This document shows positions 413 through 24,336 of a DNA stretch of 64,000 nt, in pieces. The translations under genes and the position numbers were made by a program. Position 1 is the first letter of the stretch, and every line of letters begins with the position of its first letter. The DNA is taken from assembly GCA_015063085.1 (NCBI GenBank), contig SUTD01000003.1:32001-96000 (forward strand), given 5' to 3'. This DNA comes from Methanocorpusculum parvum. Its GTDB lineage: Archaea > Halobacteriota > Methanomicrobia > Methanomicrobiales > Methanocorpusculaceae. The notes below the pieces were generated by a model. That model did not search any database. It was not told where the DNA came from and saw nothing but the letters and a program-made list of their open reading frames with translations.

Positions 413-1411
413 TTATCTCCTGATACATACCAATATCCTTATCCTATCTTTAACATATGGAACCGATGCATAGATTTTGATGATTCTTTTTCCAATAAAA
501 GCAGGAAGAATACTCAGTATACGAAGACCTGTTCTTCGAATGGCAAACTCTTTTGATGAAGATTGTGCCAAAGCCTGCTTTGCATATCTTTTGTTGCCAG
601 CACCAAGATTGAAGTAGGCAGTAATCAAATTCAGATATTCTTTGGCAAGTAAGATATCAGAGTGGTCTTCACGGTTTTGAAGAGTGGATTCAGAGATACT
701 ATCCAGATATTCAACCGGCGGAAGTTTTTCGATTGGATAGTAGTCAGTGGACATCTTATTGTCTGCGAAGAGATGATATCTTGCATGGACTTCTTTTGTG
801 AATACTATTGGAACGTTGAGAGCAGCTTTAACCCACATCTCAACATCCTCCGCCATGCGTGAATTCGGATTGAAGTATCCTGTTTTGGAGAACATATCCC
901 AATGCAGCACCACACTGCAGGGACAAAATGGCGGGAAACCAGACTTAACATAAATTGAAAACCATGACGGCAAATATCCTTCGAATGATTCAGACAATCC
1001 TTTCACCGGACTTGGTTTTGCGGTAGTGAGAGAAAAGCGTTCATAGGCAGTAGCATAGATTCCAGCTCCTGGATATTTCTGATAGAGATGAATAATTGTT
1101 TCAAGGAAATCCGGATGCCATTCATCATCTGCATCTAAGAAAGCAATAAGTTCACCACTTGCATGGGAAATTGCTTCATTACGAGCAGCAGGAAGACCTT
1201 TTGATTTCTGGTGAATGATTTGGATACGGGAATCTTTTAAGTATGATTCTGCGATTTCAAGACTGCCGTCAGTAGAACCGCCATCAATTATGAGGAGTTC
1301 ATAATCTGTTATTGTCTGGCTGAAAATTGATTGAAGGGAGCGTTCAACCTCATTTACTTTGTTGTAAAGAGGTACGATTACAGTAATTGATGGATATGTG
1401 GATTCAGACAT
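413..1411 (-). CDS. Glycosyltransferase family 2
   Basis: This is a 332-residue GT-A fold glycosyltransferase that probably transfers a sugar from a nucleotide donor to a surface glycan at the cytoplasmic face of the membrane. The N-terminus shows the GT2 core: ITVIVPLYN at residues 9-17, the IIDGGSTDGS nucleotide-binding loop at 41-50, and DADD at 93-96 for the metal and sugar-nucleotide. I chose the ATG at 1411 because residues before it do not fit the family; an in-frame TTG lies 16 codons upstream. Regulatory module copy 1 begins 49 bp upstream, and a second GT2 gene diverges on the other side of it. Donor and acceptor cannot be read from the sequence. Confidence 0.88.
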   Translation of the reverse strand: MSESTYPSITVIVPLYNKVNEVERSLQSIFSQTITDYELLIIDGGSTDGSLEIAESYLKDSRIQIIHQKSKGLPAARNEAISHASGELIAFLDADDEWHPDFLETIIHLYQKYPGAGIYATAYERFSLTTAKPSPVKGLSESFEGYLPSWFSIYVKSGFPPFCPCSVVLHWDMFSKTGYFNPNSRMAEDVEMWVKAALNVPIVFTKEVHARYHLFADNKMSTDYYPIEKLPPVEYLDSISESTLQNREDHSDILLAKEYLNLITAYFNLGAGNKRYAKQALAQSSSKEFAIRRTGLRILSILPAFIGKRIIKIYASVPYVKDRIRILVCIRR

Positions 1412-1460
1412 ATGTAATCTCAAAATCAGAAGAACATGGGTGTTGCAATTATTGCCCAAA

Positions 1461-18534: not shown

Positions 18535-20655
18535 ATGATACAAAAACTTCTCAGAGTAATTCTTAACATATGTTATATTCTTCCGTATGTACTGCTCGCA
18601 GCACCTATTGCAGTGTATCTTTTCCTCCTGTTGAACGGAAACTTTAGCTGGATGTTCAAAGGACTGCCGCTATTCATATCTCTGGTCCTTGTATCAATAA
18701 TTCTGATAATAAACAGGAAATCGATATTCTCTGGTGATTTGAAACTCTGTTCAGAAGTTTATCTGTCAGAAAAATTCTCACCGCAATGGCTTTTGAAGAT
18801 ATTTGGCATTTTATTCTCTGCTGCTTTTGTCTGGATTCTGGTAACAGACACGCGCGATGCGATATTTCTTCTGTTTATCATCGCACTGTATTCTCTCATA
18901 GTATTGCAGATATTTGCAAAAGAATCAGGCAAGCGTTTCACTCCGCTTATTCTTCTTGAACTGATGGCAGTATTTGTTCTCCAGGTATTCTCCACGCTGT
19001 TTACCCATGCATATTACTATGGATGGACTGATGTTCCAGTACATTTAAACTGGATTCAGACGATTGTGGAAAGCGGGCATGTTGAATCCATTCTTGGGCA
19101 GTATACAAACTATTGCCTCTTCCATATTGACTCAGTGATGGCATCGCTGCTTTCCGGTCTTGATACCTATACAACCCTTTATCTTACTGCAACACCGCTT
19201 ATCATTGTATCAACTGTCTTCATCTACCATATTGCAAAGCACTTTACCAAATCATCTCAGTTGCCGCTTCTTGCTTCTTTCTTCTATGTAATGATTCCGG
19301 TTATCATTCAGTATGCTGTTTATCCAATGCCGAGGATGCACTCCACCATTGCTTTCATCATCATTCTTTACGGCATGTTTAGATGGGGTAAGGAGTTTAA
19401 ATTCTCTCATCTCCTTCTAGTGTTGTTTGTTATGCTGTATATGGTACTGGTACACCATGCGCAGTTAATTCCTGTTGCATTGATGATGACGGGGATTTTT
19501 GTTTTCCTCCTTATTTACCGCTACAGATTCACTCTTCTGCAGAAACTTACTCTTGGCTTCTTCTATCTGGTATCAGCAGTTGGTTTGCTGGTTGGTCCAT
19601 ACGGTGCGCCATGGGTTTCCAAATACCTTGAAAAGATTTTACAGAGTGTTCCATCCACACCTGTTATAAACCCATCCAATCCTGGAACTGATATCCCGCA
19701 GGTTGCTGTTCCCTCAACCCCTGTAATCCCCGGTGATGTTCCAGGAAGTGTCGTCGAAGAAGTCATTGAATCCGGCGGCTCTTCCGGAAGTGTTTTCGCT
19801 CAAACTTCTGCGGCTGAATCTCTTGATGCTTGGAATCAAGTTTTAATTGGAGAATTTGGAGTTTCTGCCTGGTTTAGCCTTATCTCAACTGCAATGATGA
19901 TTGTCTTCATCCTCTTTGGGATTTACTATCTTCTGTCTCCAAAGATGATGAATAAGAAAATTGCCGTCTTTGGTATGTTTGGTATTGTTTTGACTCTTGT
20001 CTTTGCCCCACATGTTGCAGAAATTGTTGAATCATGGCTGAGTACGGATTTAGAGTTAGATCGGCTTCGTTTGGTAATGTCACCTGTCTATGCGGTAATT
20101 ATGGCTGTTGGTTGTGCAGTTATTGCAAATCTTGTTTCCTCTATGAAAAATGATAATGGAAGAAAAAGAGGAGTGCCTGTTGCCATCTTGCTCTGCATAG
20201 CATTAATTGTGGCTTCTCCTATCATGGCTGAATCACGTGATAGTACTGCATTTGATGGGCTGATGATTGCTGACACTGATTATTTCACCGAAACTGAAAT
20301 GGTAGCTTTGAATAGTCTGGAAGAATACATTCCTGCTGGTTCATCCATCTATACTGACCAGCCTGTAATGAGATATTATCCAGGTTCAAAGGGATATCTG
20401 AATTATGATATGGCATATTTTTCTTTCAAAAATGGCGGAGACAAACTGTATTCAGAGAATGTGGATGTTCCACACCTTGTAGAATATGTCATTGTTCGTG
20501 ATGATCGATATGAACTGAGTGGTTTGTGGTACGCTGATTCTAATGGAAAAAGTGTGAGAATAACTCCTACGGATGAGAATACGCTAGTTCTATTTGAAAA
20601 TGTAGTTATGATGGCTAAGGTATACTCTAGCGAGAGTATATGGGTAGTTCATTGA
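18535..20655 (+). CDS. Large polytopic membrane protein, GT-C-like
   Basis: This 706-residue protein has about 13 membrane segments. Early ones are at residues ~10-65 and ~85-155, with a YYYGWTDVPVHLNW loop after TM5 carrying the Asp/His residues expected for a lipid-sugar-using enzyme. A Pro/Ser/Val-rich extracytoplasmic linker (about residues 375-425, VPSTPVINPSNPG repeated in varied form) precedes a second membrane block and a C-terminal domain of ~130 residues. The plan matches its divergent partner at 16297-18288, although the two are not close in sequence. A glycan transfer or polymerisation role is plausible from context but unproven. Confidence 0.75.
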   Translation: MIQKLLRVILNICYILPYVLLAAPIAVYLFLLLNGNFSWMFKGLPLFISLVLVSIILIINRKSIFSGDLKLCSEVYLSEKFSPQWLLKIFGILFSAAFVWILVTDTRDAIFLLFIIALYSLIVLQIFAKESGKRFTPLILLELMAVFVLQVFSTLFTHAYYYGWTDVPVHLNWIQTIVESGHVESILGQYTNYCLFHIDSVMASLLSGLDTYTTLYLTATPLIIVSTVFIYHIAKHFTKSSQLPLLASFFYVMIPVIIQYAVYPMPRMHSTIAFIIILYGMFRWGKEFKFSHLLLVLFVMLYMVLVHHAQLIPVALMMTGIFVFLLIYRYRFTLLQKLTLGFFYLVSAVGLLVGPYGAPWVSKYLEKILQSVPSTPVINPSNPGTDIPQVAVPSTPVIPGDVPGSVVEEVIESGGSSGSVFAQTSAAESLDAWNQVLIGEFGVSAWFSLISTAMMIVFILFGIYYLLSPKMMNKKIAVFGMFGIVLTLVFAPHVAEIVESWLSTDLELDRLRLVMSPVYAVIMAVGCAVIANLVSSMKNDNGRKRGVPVAILLCIALIVASPIMAESRDSTAFDGLMIADTDYFTETEMVALNSLEEYIPAGSSIYTDQPVMRYYPGSKGYLNYDMAYFSFKNGGDKLYSENVDVPHLVEYVIVRDDRYELSGLWYADSNGKSVRITPTDENTLVLFENVVMMAKVYSSESIWVVH

Positions 20656-20765: not shown

Positions 20766-21668
20766 TTAGTTTCTCCTTAGATTCTTGTATAGTCTGCCCC
20801 ATAGTTCTTTGCTTTGATGAAGATATACAACACTCATATATCGCAGAATAAAGATTGATTTTATACATGACACATAACGAACAACTCTAAATCCTGTTGA
20901 ATTCCCAAACACTATTCCTGAACAAGAAGAGAAAAGATATTTTGTAAAAATATCATGACAGCCTTCTTTAACAAGATTTGGATGAATATATCCATTTGCG
21001 TTGTGAATTAAAGATGGGAAGAGAGGATTATTAGAATCCAATTTTAATGTGATATATCGATTGTAGTGATTCTGATATTCCTTTAAAGCAAACATATGGA
21101 GTTTAGGGTAACCATGCTCCACAGATAATTTCAACAAATCAATGATACATTTCATATAATCATTTGCTTTTCGGATATCCCAGTTAATTTTCTTGTGTCC
21201 AACTCTGTAACAATATGTTTGAAGTTGGGATGCATAGAATGAACCAACAGTTGTCATCACATTCACAAAAAACGGCAGGTCCTGTCCTCGTAAATAATCA
21301 GGAAATACAATTCCATGATCCATCAACATCCTACGAGAATAGATGAAACGCTGATAGAAAAAAGATATTTGATAATCTGAAAAACTCACCATTCCAGAAG
21401 AGAAAAACACGTATTCATTGGAAGGTGATAATATTCCATCATCCCAACATATGAGTGATCCGCCAGCAATATCAACATGGAATTTTTTCGCAGAATTATA
21501 TAATTCTTCTAAGACGTTTGCAGAAGGATACCAATCATCTGAATCCATAAATGCAATATATTCGCCTCTTGCAATCTGCATCCCTTTATTCCGTGCAGCC
21601 CCACTACCTTTATTTTCCTGTTGTAAAATTCTGATTCTTGAGTCCTGTGAATTCTTCTCTAGTAGGAT
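20766..21668 (-). pseudogene. Headless GT2 glycosyltransferase, silent cassette of a probable inversion switch
   Basis: This reading frame gives 300 residues of GT2 sequence with no start codon for its N-terminal core. From 21668 it reads ILLEKNSQDSRIRILQQENK, SGAARNKG and then FMDSDDWYP, so the DSDD motif is present. The first ~48 residues (the ISVIIPIYN strand and DDGSTD loop) are missing. Upstream of 21668 the frame runs into the neighbour's promoter and hits TGA at about 21719. The first ATG (21581) would give 271 residues lacking half the nucleotide-binding fold. The 5' end, 21613-21668, is an exact inverted copy of 21886-21941. Inversion of the segment between would supply a promoter and 48 codons in frame, giving a normal 348-residue GT2. 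An ordinary truncated pseudogene is the alternative. Confidence 0.8.
21613..21668 (-). repeat. Left arm of 56-bp perfect inverted repeat
   Basis: The reverse complement of this stretch equals 21886-21941 at all 56 positions. It begins (inner edge) with ATCCTACTA, which is half of the 18-bp palindrome found in the three regulatory modules. Both arms are read in the same codon phase of their genes. Confidence 0.95.
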
Positions 21669-21885
21669 AATTGATTTGTAAATAATTTTTGTAAATTTAG
21701 CTATATAGATATAATATCACATCAAATAATTAATACCACACATGAACCCTTTAATCTCAGTAATTATTCCTATATACAATATGTCTGAATATCTCAATCA
21801 ATGTCTCGACAGCATATTGTCCCAATCGCTAAAAGAAATTGAAATAATCTGTGTTGATGATGGTTCGACAGATAATTCTATGGAA
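21669..21885. other. Putative invertible segment carrying the promoter and 5' end of a GT2 gene
   Basis: These 217 bp between the repeat arms hold a promoter-like region, the ATG at 21742 and exactly 48 codons (144 bases) that encode the GT2 N-terminal strand and DDGSTD loop. In the orientation seen here they are joined to the plus-strand body. After inversion they would join the minus-strand body in the correct frame, leaving the plus-strand body headless. No recombinase gene is near; RadA-type homologous recombination or a recombinase elsewhere would be needed. Confidence 0.75.
21710..21717 (+). promoter_or_regulatory. Probable TATA box of the switchable GT2
   Basis: TATAATAT lies about 28 bp upstream of the ATG at 21742, the spacing of a leaderless archaeal transcript. 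It lies inside the segment between the inverted repeats, so it would move with the 5' coding part on inversion. Confidence 0.5.
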
Positions 21886-22857
21886 ATCCTACTAGAGAAG
21901 AATTCACAGGACTCAAGAATCAGAATTTTACAACAGGAAAACAAAGGTGGAGGGGCAGCACGTAACTTAGGATTAAATGTGGCAAAAGGCAAATACCTCT
22001 CTTTTTTAGATTCAGATGATTTCTTTGAACCAGAAATGCTTGAAAGCGCGTACCATACTGCTGAAAAATCTGATGCAGACATAACGATATTCGAATATAA
22101 GATATACAACACAAACACATCACAACACTCAAATAAAAAGCACGGTTTGTCGAATACTGTATTAAACCTCAAACAACCACTATCACACAAAGATATACCT
22201 CAATCCATATTCTCAATAACAAATCCAGCCCCATGGAATAAACTATACAAACATGACTTCATCAAGAGATATAACCTTAGATTTCAAGAAATCAAAAAAA
22301 ACAATGACCTCTACTTTGGGTTTACAACGCTCTACTTTGCAGAAAAAATAGCTATTCTCAACAAACCTCTCTTATCATATAGAACCGGGACTGGAACAAA
22401 TACACAAGCAACAACCTACAAAAATCCCAATGATATTTACTATGCCCTTATAGAAGTACACAAACATCTCTCAAATACACCCTCATGGAATTTAGTCGAA
22501 AAGAGTTTTATCAATGAGGCATTGAATCACTGTATCGGGCAGTTAGACAAACTCAGAGAGAGATATCCACATGCATTTGAGGAGTTAAAGACATTGTTGA
22601 ATACGGAAGGTTATGAGAAACTAGGAATTTCAAAACATCCTAAAGCTGATTTTGAAAAAAAATGGAACTACTGGAGATATCAAGAGTATCTCACATGGAA
22701 AGAAGATGAAGATTCCAATCATATAGAGAAAATTAGGAGGCAGTTGTGTTTGTCAGTATGTCAATTCTATTCTCTGGTTGTTTCTCTGATAAACGTGTTG
22801 AGATTTGACGGAGCGAGGGAAGCAACAAAACAAGTTCTGGATTTCATCCATAAATAA
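21742..22857 (+). CDS. Glycosyltransferase family 2, currently expressed partner of the inversion switch
   Basis: This is a 371-residue GT2 enzyme: ISVIIPIYN at residues 5-13, DDGSTDNS at 39-46, and DSDD at about 92-95. The C-terminal half is A+T-rich, basic and helical. Codons 49-67 are the right repeat arm (21886-21941), shared exactly and in the same frame with the headless GT2 on the other strand. Downstream of the repeat the two proteins differ strongly, so they should differ in acceptor or sugar. It ends 6 bp from the convergent flippase gene. In the alternative orientation this body would lack a promoter and N-terminus. Confidence 0.88.
   Translation: MNPLISVIIPIYNMSEYLNQCLDSILSQSLKEIEIICVDDGSTDNSMEILLEKNSQDSRIRILQQENKGGGAARNLGLNVAKGKYLSFLDSDDFFEPEMLESAYHTAEKSDADITIFEYKIYNTNTSQHSNKKHGLSNTVLNLKQPLSHKDIPQSIFSITNPAPWNKLYKHDFIKRYNLRFQEIKKNNDLYFGFTTLYFAEKIAILNKPLLSYRTGTGTNTQATTYKNPNDIYYALIEVHKHLSNTPSWNLVEKSFINEALNHCIGQLDKLRERYPHAFEELKTLLNTEGYEKLGISKHPKADFEKKWNYWRYQEYLTWKEDEDSNHIEKIRRQLCLSVCQFYSLVVSLINVLRFDGAREATKQVLDFIHK
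21886..21941 (+). repeat. Right arm of 56-bp perfect inverted repeat
   Basis: This is identical to the reverse complement of 21613-21668. It lies inside the GT2 coding sequence and starts at codon 49. Beyond the arm the two genes remain partly similar (KG-GAARN region), while on the inner side similarity stops sharply. Confidence 0.95.
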
Positions 22858-22863
22858 ATAGAA

Positions 22864-24336
22864 TTAACCCCACCCCAAATACTCCCTAACCCTCTTTTCC
22901 TTCAGCACTAACCACCCAACATAAACCACTCCAACCCCAACAGCCGCGACACAAACAACCCACTCCGGTAGCACTCCCGATAAACTCAGACAGAACACCA
23001 ATCCAGCCCCTACCACTGACGCCAGAACAGCCTTTTGCACATTTCGCCAAATCACCGCAAACGAAGCACCAGACCGTCTGACAACCACATACCCCATAAA
23101 CCCATACACAAACACCCCGCTAATCATGAACAGGAATAACCCAAGATACGCATTCCCGACAATACCACCAATCAGCAGAGACAGAAATCGCGTGGAAAGA
23201 TTCAGCACATTGTAGAAGAATCCGAAACCCTGAAACTCCATCACGTAGATTAGCTCGCTCATAATTGAAGCAACAAACCAGATCATTGCCCAAAGAGCAA
23301 GAATCTGCGCAAACACTCCTGCTTCGTACCATTCAGAACCAAACACTAATCCAAACAAATTTCCGCCCACCACTCCAAGTAACAAAAACGGCATGACAGC
23401 AACCATAATAAGAACAGAACATATCTCCTCTGTCAGCTGCGGAAGTGTGCCGTCATGCTTTGCAACAGCCCCGCGCTGCAGAAACACCTGACGAATTGAA
23501 CCGCCGATAAAACTCATCGGCATCTGAATCATCGAGAATCCAAGAGTGTAAAGACCAGCAATAACCGGAGAGAAAAATCCGGACAGCATAAGTACTGGGA
23601 GCTGCCAGGAGATGACATTCATAAGATTCGACCAGGTATCAATCAGCGGAAACTTCCGGTATCGTACCATCTGAGATTTGATATTAGAAAGAGAACAGCT
23701 CTCTTTGAGTATCGCAAAATCTGCACGGAGTCCGCGAATAAGTAAGATGATGGTGCCGAGAGTCTGACCTGCAATCTGTGCAGCGATAAGCGACAGAGCG
23801 TGAATCTGTCCTACAAGACCTAACCCAAGTTTACACCCGCTTCCAGTAATTGACTGCAGTGCCTGAGTTGCTGCTTGCGTTCCAAAACGTTTGTTTCTGG
23901 TGTTCCAGTATCTGAGTGCAAGATATAATCCGTCAATGAAAACCAGAAGCGGAATCAGAAGGACATACGGAGAGAGTTCCGGAGTGTTGAAAATATTTAC
24001 AATCCCCTCTCCAAAGAAAAGGAAAACCGGTATCAACACTGCAGTGAAACAGAGGAGAACACCAATACAGGCAAGAAACACTCCACCTGCTTCCTTCTGA
24101 TTTTTCGGCAGAAGAATTGCAAGCTCATAGCGCATGCAGGAGATTACAGTCAGGATGCTGACAATCGAGATGAAAACAGAAGCAACACCATAAATATCAG
24201 GGCTGAAAATACGAGTGATTATAGGAGTGAGACAGATTCCAACAGCCTGCGCTATGATGGTTCCAGTAACTAATTTTCCCACATCACGACCGAAGGACTT
24301 TTTGTCGTTCTTTTGGCTCTCTACAGAATCACCCAT
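22864..24336 (-). CDS. Polysaccharide flippase, Wzx/oligosaccharide-translocase type (MOP superfamily)
   Basis: This 490-residue protein has about 12-14 hydrophobic segments and little loop sequence. The N-terminal GRDVGKLVTGTIIAQAVGICLTPIITRIFSPDIYG is the usual opening of Wzx-like lipid-linked oligosaccharide flippases, with the R.FSP.-YG turn after TM1. It would turn a lipid-linked glycan from the cytoplasmic to the outer face. The first ~15 residues are soluble and charged. It is the glycan-export gene of the cluster, lies 26 bp upstream of galU on the same strand, and is convergent with the switchable GT2 gene. Confidence 0.88.
   Translation of the reverse strand: MGDSVESQKNDKKSFGRDVGKLVTGTIIAQAVGICLTPIITRIFSPDIYGVASVFISIVSILTVISCMRYELAILLPKNQKEAGGVFLACIGVLLCFTAVLIPVFLFFGEGIVNIFNTPELSPYVLLIPLLVFIDGLYLALRYWNTRNKRFGTQAATQALQSITGSGCKLGLGLVGQIHALSLIAAQIAGQTLGTIILLIRGLRADFAILKESCSLSNIKSQMVRYRKFPLIDTWSNLMNVISWQLPVLMLSGFFSPVIAGLYTLGFSMIQMPMSFIGGSIRQVFLQRGAVAKHDGTLPQLTEEICSVLIMVAVMPFLLLGVVGGNLFGLVFGSEWYEAGVFAQILALWAMIWFVASIMSELIYVMEFQGFGFFYNVLNLSTRFLSLLIGGIVGNAYLGLFLFMISGVFVYGFMGYVVVRRSGASFAVIWRNVQKAVLASVVGAGLVFCLSLSGVLPEWVVCVAAVGVGVVYVGWLVLKEKRVREYLGWG

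Follow-up and report, generated by a model that had tools for sequence, protein, structure and literature searches.

Two divergent glycosyltransferase genes and a shared repeat

Two GT2 glycosyltransferase genes, one with its 5' end and one without, lie divergently in the window (the whole 64-kb stretch of DNA analysed here, on contig C23 of a MAG). The plus-strand gene (21742-22857) is intact; it encodes 371 aa, matches PF00535 with 128 bits and is a complete GT2 having a GT-A nucleotide-binding half with DxD. The minus-strand gene (20766-21668) runs through 300 codons with no internal stop, but it is only a body: its GT2 core is missing the first half, and on its own it has no complete GT-A nucleotide-binding half. 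A TGA at 21719 marks the upstream end of its open frame, and thereafter the first in-frame ATG, GTG or TTG occurs at 21581. The lack of an in-frame start from 21719 to 21581, together with a PF00535 match that begins only at profile position 50, confirmed that this gene is headless, as the earlier note had claimed.

Each of the two genes contains one arm of a perfect 56-bp inverted repeat. The left arm (21613-21668, minus strand) makes up codons 1-18 plus two bases of the headless body, and the right arm (21886-21941, plus strand) begins at codon 49 of the plus gene, counted from its ATG at 21742. The two arms are perfect reverse complements separated by 217 bp, at exactly the coordinates given in the earlier note, and they form the sole perfect inverted repeat of at least 20 bp, at any spacing, in the 64-kb window. 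Through its arm the minus frame reads ILLEKNSQDSRIRILQQE, identical to the plus gene. Beyond the 56-bp arms the likeness goes on as ordinary GT2 homology, the identity outside them being 70% over the first 80 nt and 47% over 200 nt, and a longer imperfect inverted repeat (136-nt arms, 82%) has its outer limits at 21533-22021.

The 217-bp segment between the arms (21669-21885), which is predicted to invert, is made up of a 73-bp leader (21669-21741, plus strand) followed by the plus gene's first 48 codons (21742-21885, plus strand). These 48 codons, hereafter called the head, begin with the ATG and encode a strand-helix-strand unit and the start of helix 2, belonging to the GT-A nucleotide-binding half; they include the VDDGSTD stretch, a nucleotide-binding motif of GT2 enzymes. 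The leader has only 18% G+C and contains a TATA-like box (21702-21711), and it is the putative promoter. The TATA box that had been proposed between the arms is present in the form of TATATAGATA at 21702, but the minus strand there reads TATATAGCTA; because the box is nearly palindromic, the direction of the promoter is not set by the motif alone.

The flanking genes are convergent with the pair on both sides, one facing the minus body (18535-20655, plus strand) and the other the plus gene (22864-24336, minus strand), so that an inversion would affect only the two GT2 ORFs. Judged from their translations, the neighbouring ORFs are read as glycan-biosynthesis genes. The MAG (G000; 1,401,745 bases in 36 contigs, 79.8% complete) comes from a methanogenic archaeon, as CfbC (F430 synthesis) and archaeal aIF-2 were matched above curated cut-offs, and this archaeon is probably a Methanocorpusculum. 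The GT2 pair has a G+C content of 32-36% versus 45% for the window. A search of genome_contigs, which may leave out close relatives of the window's own genome, gave relatives of the plus gene at 31 loci, all bacterial by title, with best-segment identities of 26-55%; twelve of these loci match over 290 or more of its 371 residues. In viral_contigs no relatives of the plus gene were found. Because the pair is G+C-poor and its relatives in genome_contigs are all bacterial, it was probably acquired from bacteria. A second divergent GT2 pair in the window (413-1459 and 1712-2713) has complete heads and no perfect 20-bp inverted repeat.

The product of inversion in silico

The arm lies at a codon boundary and in the same reading phase in both genes, and inverting the 217 bp in silico consequently gave an uninterrupted 348-codon ORF on the minus strand; the intact 348-residue GT2 that the earlier note had anticipated was obtained in this way. 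The predicted chimera matched PF00535 with 126.5 bits from profile position 1, while the body alone scored 58.6 bits from position 50.

The structural model of the plus enzyme (mean pLDDT 85.5, based on an 11-sequence alignment) matched GT-A enzymes, the best Foldseek match in the PDB being 5hea. In this model the head spans strand 1, helix 1, strand 2 and the beginning of helix 2. The arm takes in what is left of helix 2 together with strand 3 (approximately residues 49-67), and the DSDD motif with everything downstream falls in the body. These borders place the exchange point, as modelled, inside the nucleotide-binding fold and ahead of the DxD motif. From what is generally known of GT-A enzymes, the donor sugar or the acceptor would be set by the body. 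The 11-sequence alignment, in which the minus body is included, has 17 invariant columns, among them A73-R74-N75, D90, D92, D93, D189 and R214.

A proposed two-state switch and other explanations

We consider it somewhat better than an even chance (probability about 0.55) that the locus is a two-state DNA-inversion switch, in which one promoter and one nucleotide-binding head serve either of two catalytic bodies. A single promoter and a single 5' coding head, with the start codon, the strand-helix-strand unit and VDDGSTD, would be held between identical inverted arms. The head would be fused to the plus body in the assembled orientation, and after inversion it would be joined in frame to the minus body, leaving the plus body headless. 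Both enzymes would thereby retain one nucleotide-binding half and swap the half containing the DxD motif and the acceptor part, and the two may make different surface glycans. Homologous recombination, or else template switching, at the 56-bp arms could bring about the exchange and would at the same time preserve their identity. We infer that the inversion occurs and that it recurs. The phase-variation switch proposed in the earlier note is partly supported: the anatomy, the core of the chimera, the uniqueness and identity of the arms and the convergent flanking genes agree with it, but no invertase was found at the locus.

The residues encoded by the arm are alike between the two genes at 18 of 18 positions, whereas each of the nine remaining members of the alignment agrees with the plus gene at only 6-11 of the 18. 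Every one of the 18 complete arm codons has synonymous alternatives, and none differs between the arms. Because this identity exceeds that seen with the relatives and there is no synonymous change, protein constraint does not explain it, and it reflects recent copying or exchange between the arms. The identity alone does not say whether such exchange still continues.

The arm sequences have two matches in the 1.40-Mb MAG, namely the arms themselves, and the locus is present as one copy. A collection of the perfect inverted repeats of the MAG (24 bp or longer, gap no wider than 6 kb) gave 18 pairs, drawn from stretches covering all contigs (1,416,262 bases including overlaps, in which pairs straddling a border would be missed). 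The arms of the other 17 pairs had 3-22 matches at E<=1e-3, partial ones counted, compared with only two for the 56-bp arms; a dispersed repeat was considered for the latter and rejected on this count. GxxExxY-like ORFs are flanked by two of these 17 pairs. Such ORFs of 123-126 aa are repeated in the window's genome, in inverted pairs (L203:14858-16943 and L162:5553-8095), and CGAATC-rich repeats are dispersed in it.

A serious possibility, to which we give less credence, is that a single recent rearrangement produced the present pair, with the plus gene intact and the headless one a young pseudogene, and that nothing switches now. Two divergent GT2 genes could have undergone an inverted partial copying or a deletion, accompanied by gene conversion, and identical sequence would result. 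It would fit a layout that is seen in one genome only, with the closest plus-gene relative in the genus being solo, and a MAG (80% complete) in which a dedicated recombinase was not found. On the other hand, the minus body has no stop in its 300 codons, which supports the switch, the 56-bp arms are without a difference, and the minus-side sequence inside the arm is unlike a second head. A very recent event would explain all three features as well, and signs of decay cannot tell whether the switch is still at work or a single event took place very recently.

The search for an invertase gave a negative result, with no recombinase or invertase at the locus or on contig C23, and none of the serine type anywhere in the 80%-complete MAG. 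Three tyrosine recombinases are encoded elsewhere in the MAG, on contigs C14 and C19. With about a fifth of the genome missing, this search is no proof of absence. One of the three, probably XerA, has a score like that of a recombinase shared by most genomes of the genus, and another adjoins a diversity-generating retroelement. A reversible inversion could also be catalysed in trans by one of these enzymes at a site inside the arms, and XerC/D-like recombinases are responsible for such inversions in several mycoplasmas according to PMC3047005. We regard this as improbable, since one of the three is probably XerA, another sits beside the retroelement, and the site used in sister species (TAAGATAATNNNNNATTATCA) has 0 matches in G000 with up to one mismatch allowed. 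As the locus itself yielded no recombinase, the most likely route is an exchange between the arms by template switching or homologous recombination; homologous exchange is our first choice and a tyrosine recombinase acting in trans the second.

An assembly artefact, in which a pair of GT2 loci, or variants from different strains, became connected via a shared stretch of about a 55-base k-mer, is possible but very unlikely: the genome is in 36 contigs, 56 bp is near a common assembly word length and a short-read assembler can confuse paths through such a repeat, but the arm-leader, arm-head and arm-body junctions should all exist in the reads, so that the sole open pairing is the orientation of the 217-bp segment, either orientation of which would give one intact and one headless gene, and the contig, of 114,574 bases, extends far beyond the repeat on both sides.

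Other arrangements were also considered and rejected. A silent cassette or gene-conversion donor does not agree with the 3' ends of the bodies, which are joined only by short chance-like matches; as no repeat joins these ends, simple inversion is the only clean outcome. A diversity-generating retroelement at the locus does not agree with arms that are identical and inverted, as they are not an adenine-specific template/variable repeat. The retroelement elsewhere in the window's genome (L022:7219-10703; G000:C19, about 115.2-118.7 kb) comprises a 665-aa protein and a 377-aa reverse transcriptase, with a 387-aa integrase ORF nearby, and its 124-bp variable/template pair has 24 mismatches, 21 of which fall on a template A; once the first ten bases are set aside, the figure is 20 of 20.

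Relatives, known systems and sister-species cassettes

A search of 25 genomes of the genus gave as the plus gene's nearest relative a solo gene of G020 (43% identity), which has no headless partner. Across the order (232 genomes, E<=1e-14, a threshold that would miss weaker partners), the window's own partner was the sole late-starting one among the matches listed. GT2 domain matches numbered 196 in 136 loci or stretches, many of them overlapping, and 16 of these matches start late: ten come from the window and nine loci that overlap it, four are found where a contig ends, in L129 and in G023:C20 (three copies), and two are in ORFs of L121 and L136. The partner in the window is the only one in this set that was found to be both headless and divergent. 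Contig G023:C20 begins inside a GT2 gene, and no second copy of its first 260 bases was found in that genome. Nor were perfect inverted repeats of at least 22 bp (gap up to 6 kb) found in the 54 loci from the order and from bacteria (L092-L145). L129 and L130, two contigs of one alphaproteobacterial MAG, have an exact 256-bp overlap inside a GT2 relative, with the head on one and the body on the other; either a repeat that has alternative partners or a plain overlap of contigs could account for this.

Reversible DNA inversion is a standard route of surface variation in gut bacteria. Little DNA inversion is on record for archaeal chromosomes, and the interest of the switch lies there. The closest likeness that we can name is bacterial. 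In Ureaplasma parvum, at mba/UU376 and UU172/UU171, either of two adjacent genes is fused by inversion to one 5' region, and UU172 and UU171 are in opposite orientation, with one repeat in the active gene's 5' sequence and the other in the intergenic spacer; PMC3047005, which describes these loci, gives the inversion enzyme as still unknown. The mba/UU172 layout is essentially the same as that of the archaeal GT2 locus, which likewise has opposed genes, one of them without a 5' end, and inverted repeats at in-frame junctions. The Ureaplasma genes differ in encoding bacterial surface proteins whose head is a signal peptide and membrane anchor, whereas the head of the GT2 locus is half of a nucleotide-binding core, its repeat is a perfect 56-bp coding repeat and its host is an archaeon.

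In the sap system of Campylobacter fetus, a promoter-bearing segment inverts between divergent homologous genes sharing 5' sequence, but the genes are S-layer genes and the segment is far larger. The sap inversion is taken up in PMC5634654. The ORF34/36 tail-fibre switch of phiCh1, as outlined in PMC4284463, is an archaeal DNA inversion that swaps parts of two proteins; it differs in belonging to a haloarchaeal virus, in swapping the 3' ends of the genes and in having the recombinase gene within the invertible segment. Recombinase invertons such as fimS and C. difficile Cdi resemble the locus in that a short repeat-bounded segment toggles expression, but they use site-specific recombinases, none of which was found at the GT2 locus.

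An inversion survey of 209 datasets included six from archaea and reported no signs of inversion in those six (PMC5903667), and in the review PMC11868660 an "archaea"-type word occurs once, as a future extension. That no described switch has this layout does not hold in general, given mba/UU172 of Ureaplasma; for archaea, to which the earlier note confined its statement, no chromosomal inversion switch of a glycosyltransferase was among the matches listed from the open-licence literature.

In a sister species (G002), a tyrosine recombinase gene is followed by a 2.4-kb segment (L011:1087-2070 and L016:424-2903; G002:C6:89447-92902) that contains a GT2 gene right after the recombinase and an oppositely oriented 449-aa ORF, and is bounded by 25-bp perfect inverted repeats (30-nt, 93%). 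From its sequence, this segment is likely to be a recombinase-driven invertible GT2 cassette in an archaeon. Homologues of the recombinase at E<=1e-60 are present in three of the 232 genomes (G002, G018 and G019), and the core site, with at most one mismatch, was found in the same three of the 25 genomes of the genus. G002 has two copies of the site in inverted orientation. The single copy of G018 makes up the last 21 bases of a contig (L216; G018:C12:64844-65838) that ends just past a 75%-identical recombinase, with 0 mismatches in 16 specified positions, as expected for an assembly breaking at an invertible site.

These sister-species cassettes are candidate recombinase-driven GT2 invertons, and they support the notion of variable GT2s in the genus, by another mechanism than that proposed for the window. 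With a tyrosine recombinase beside a repeat-flanked GT2 in G002, the genus may vary its GT2s by inversion elsewhere. We put forward only tentatively that the locus is an archaeal chromosomal phase-variation switch of a glycan-building enzyme and that, together with the sister-species cassette, it reflects a genus that varies its surface sugars by inversion. If this is true, methanogens of this genus would vary their surface sugars through DNA inversion, and a methanogen flipping its GT2s would point to pressures on the surface, for example from viruses, predators or host contact. The split inside the catalytic domain would then be a natural experiment in enzyme-half swapping.

In the third of these genomes, G019, the recombinase (46%) has no GT2 neighbour among ORFs of at least 100 aa, and no perfect 16-bp inverted repeat (gap up to 6 kb) was found in the 19 kb around it. 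The single core site of G019 is on a different contig from the recombinase, and near this one-mismatch site (around G019:C1:73265) lies another perfect inverted repeat, 80 bp long, whose arms are 95 bp apart (L226:1081-1335).
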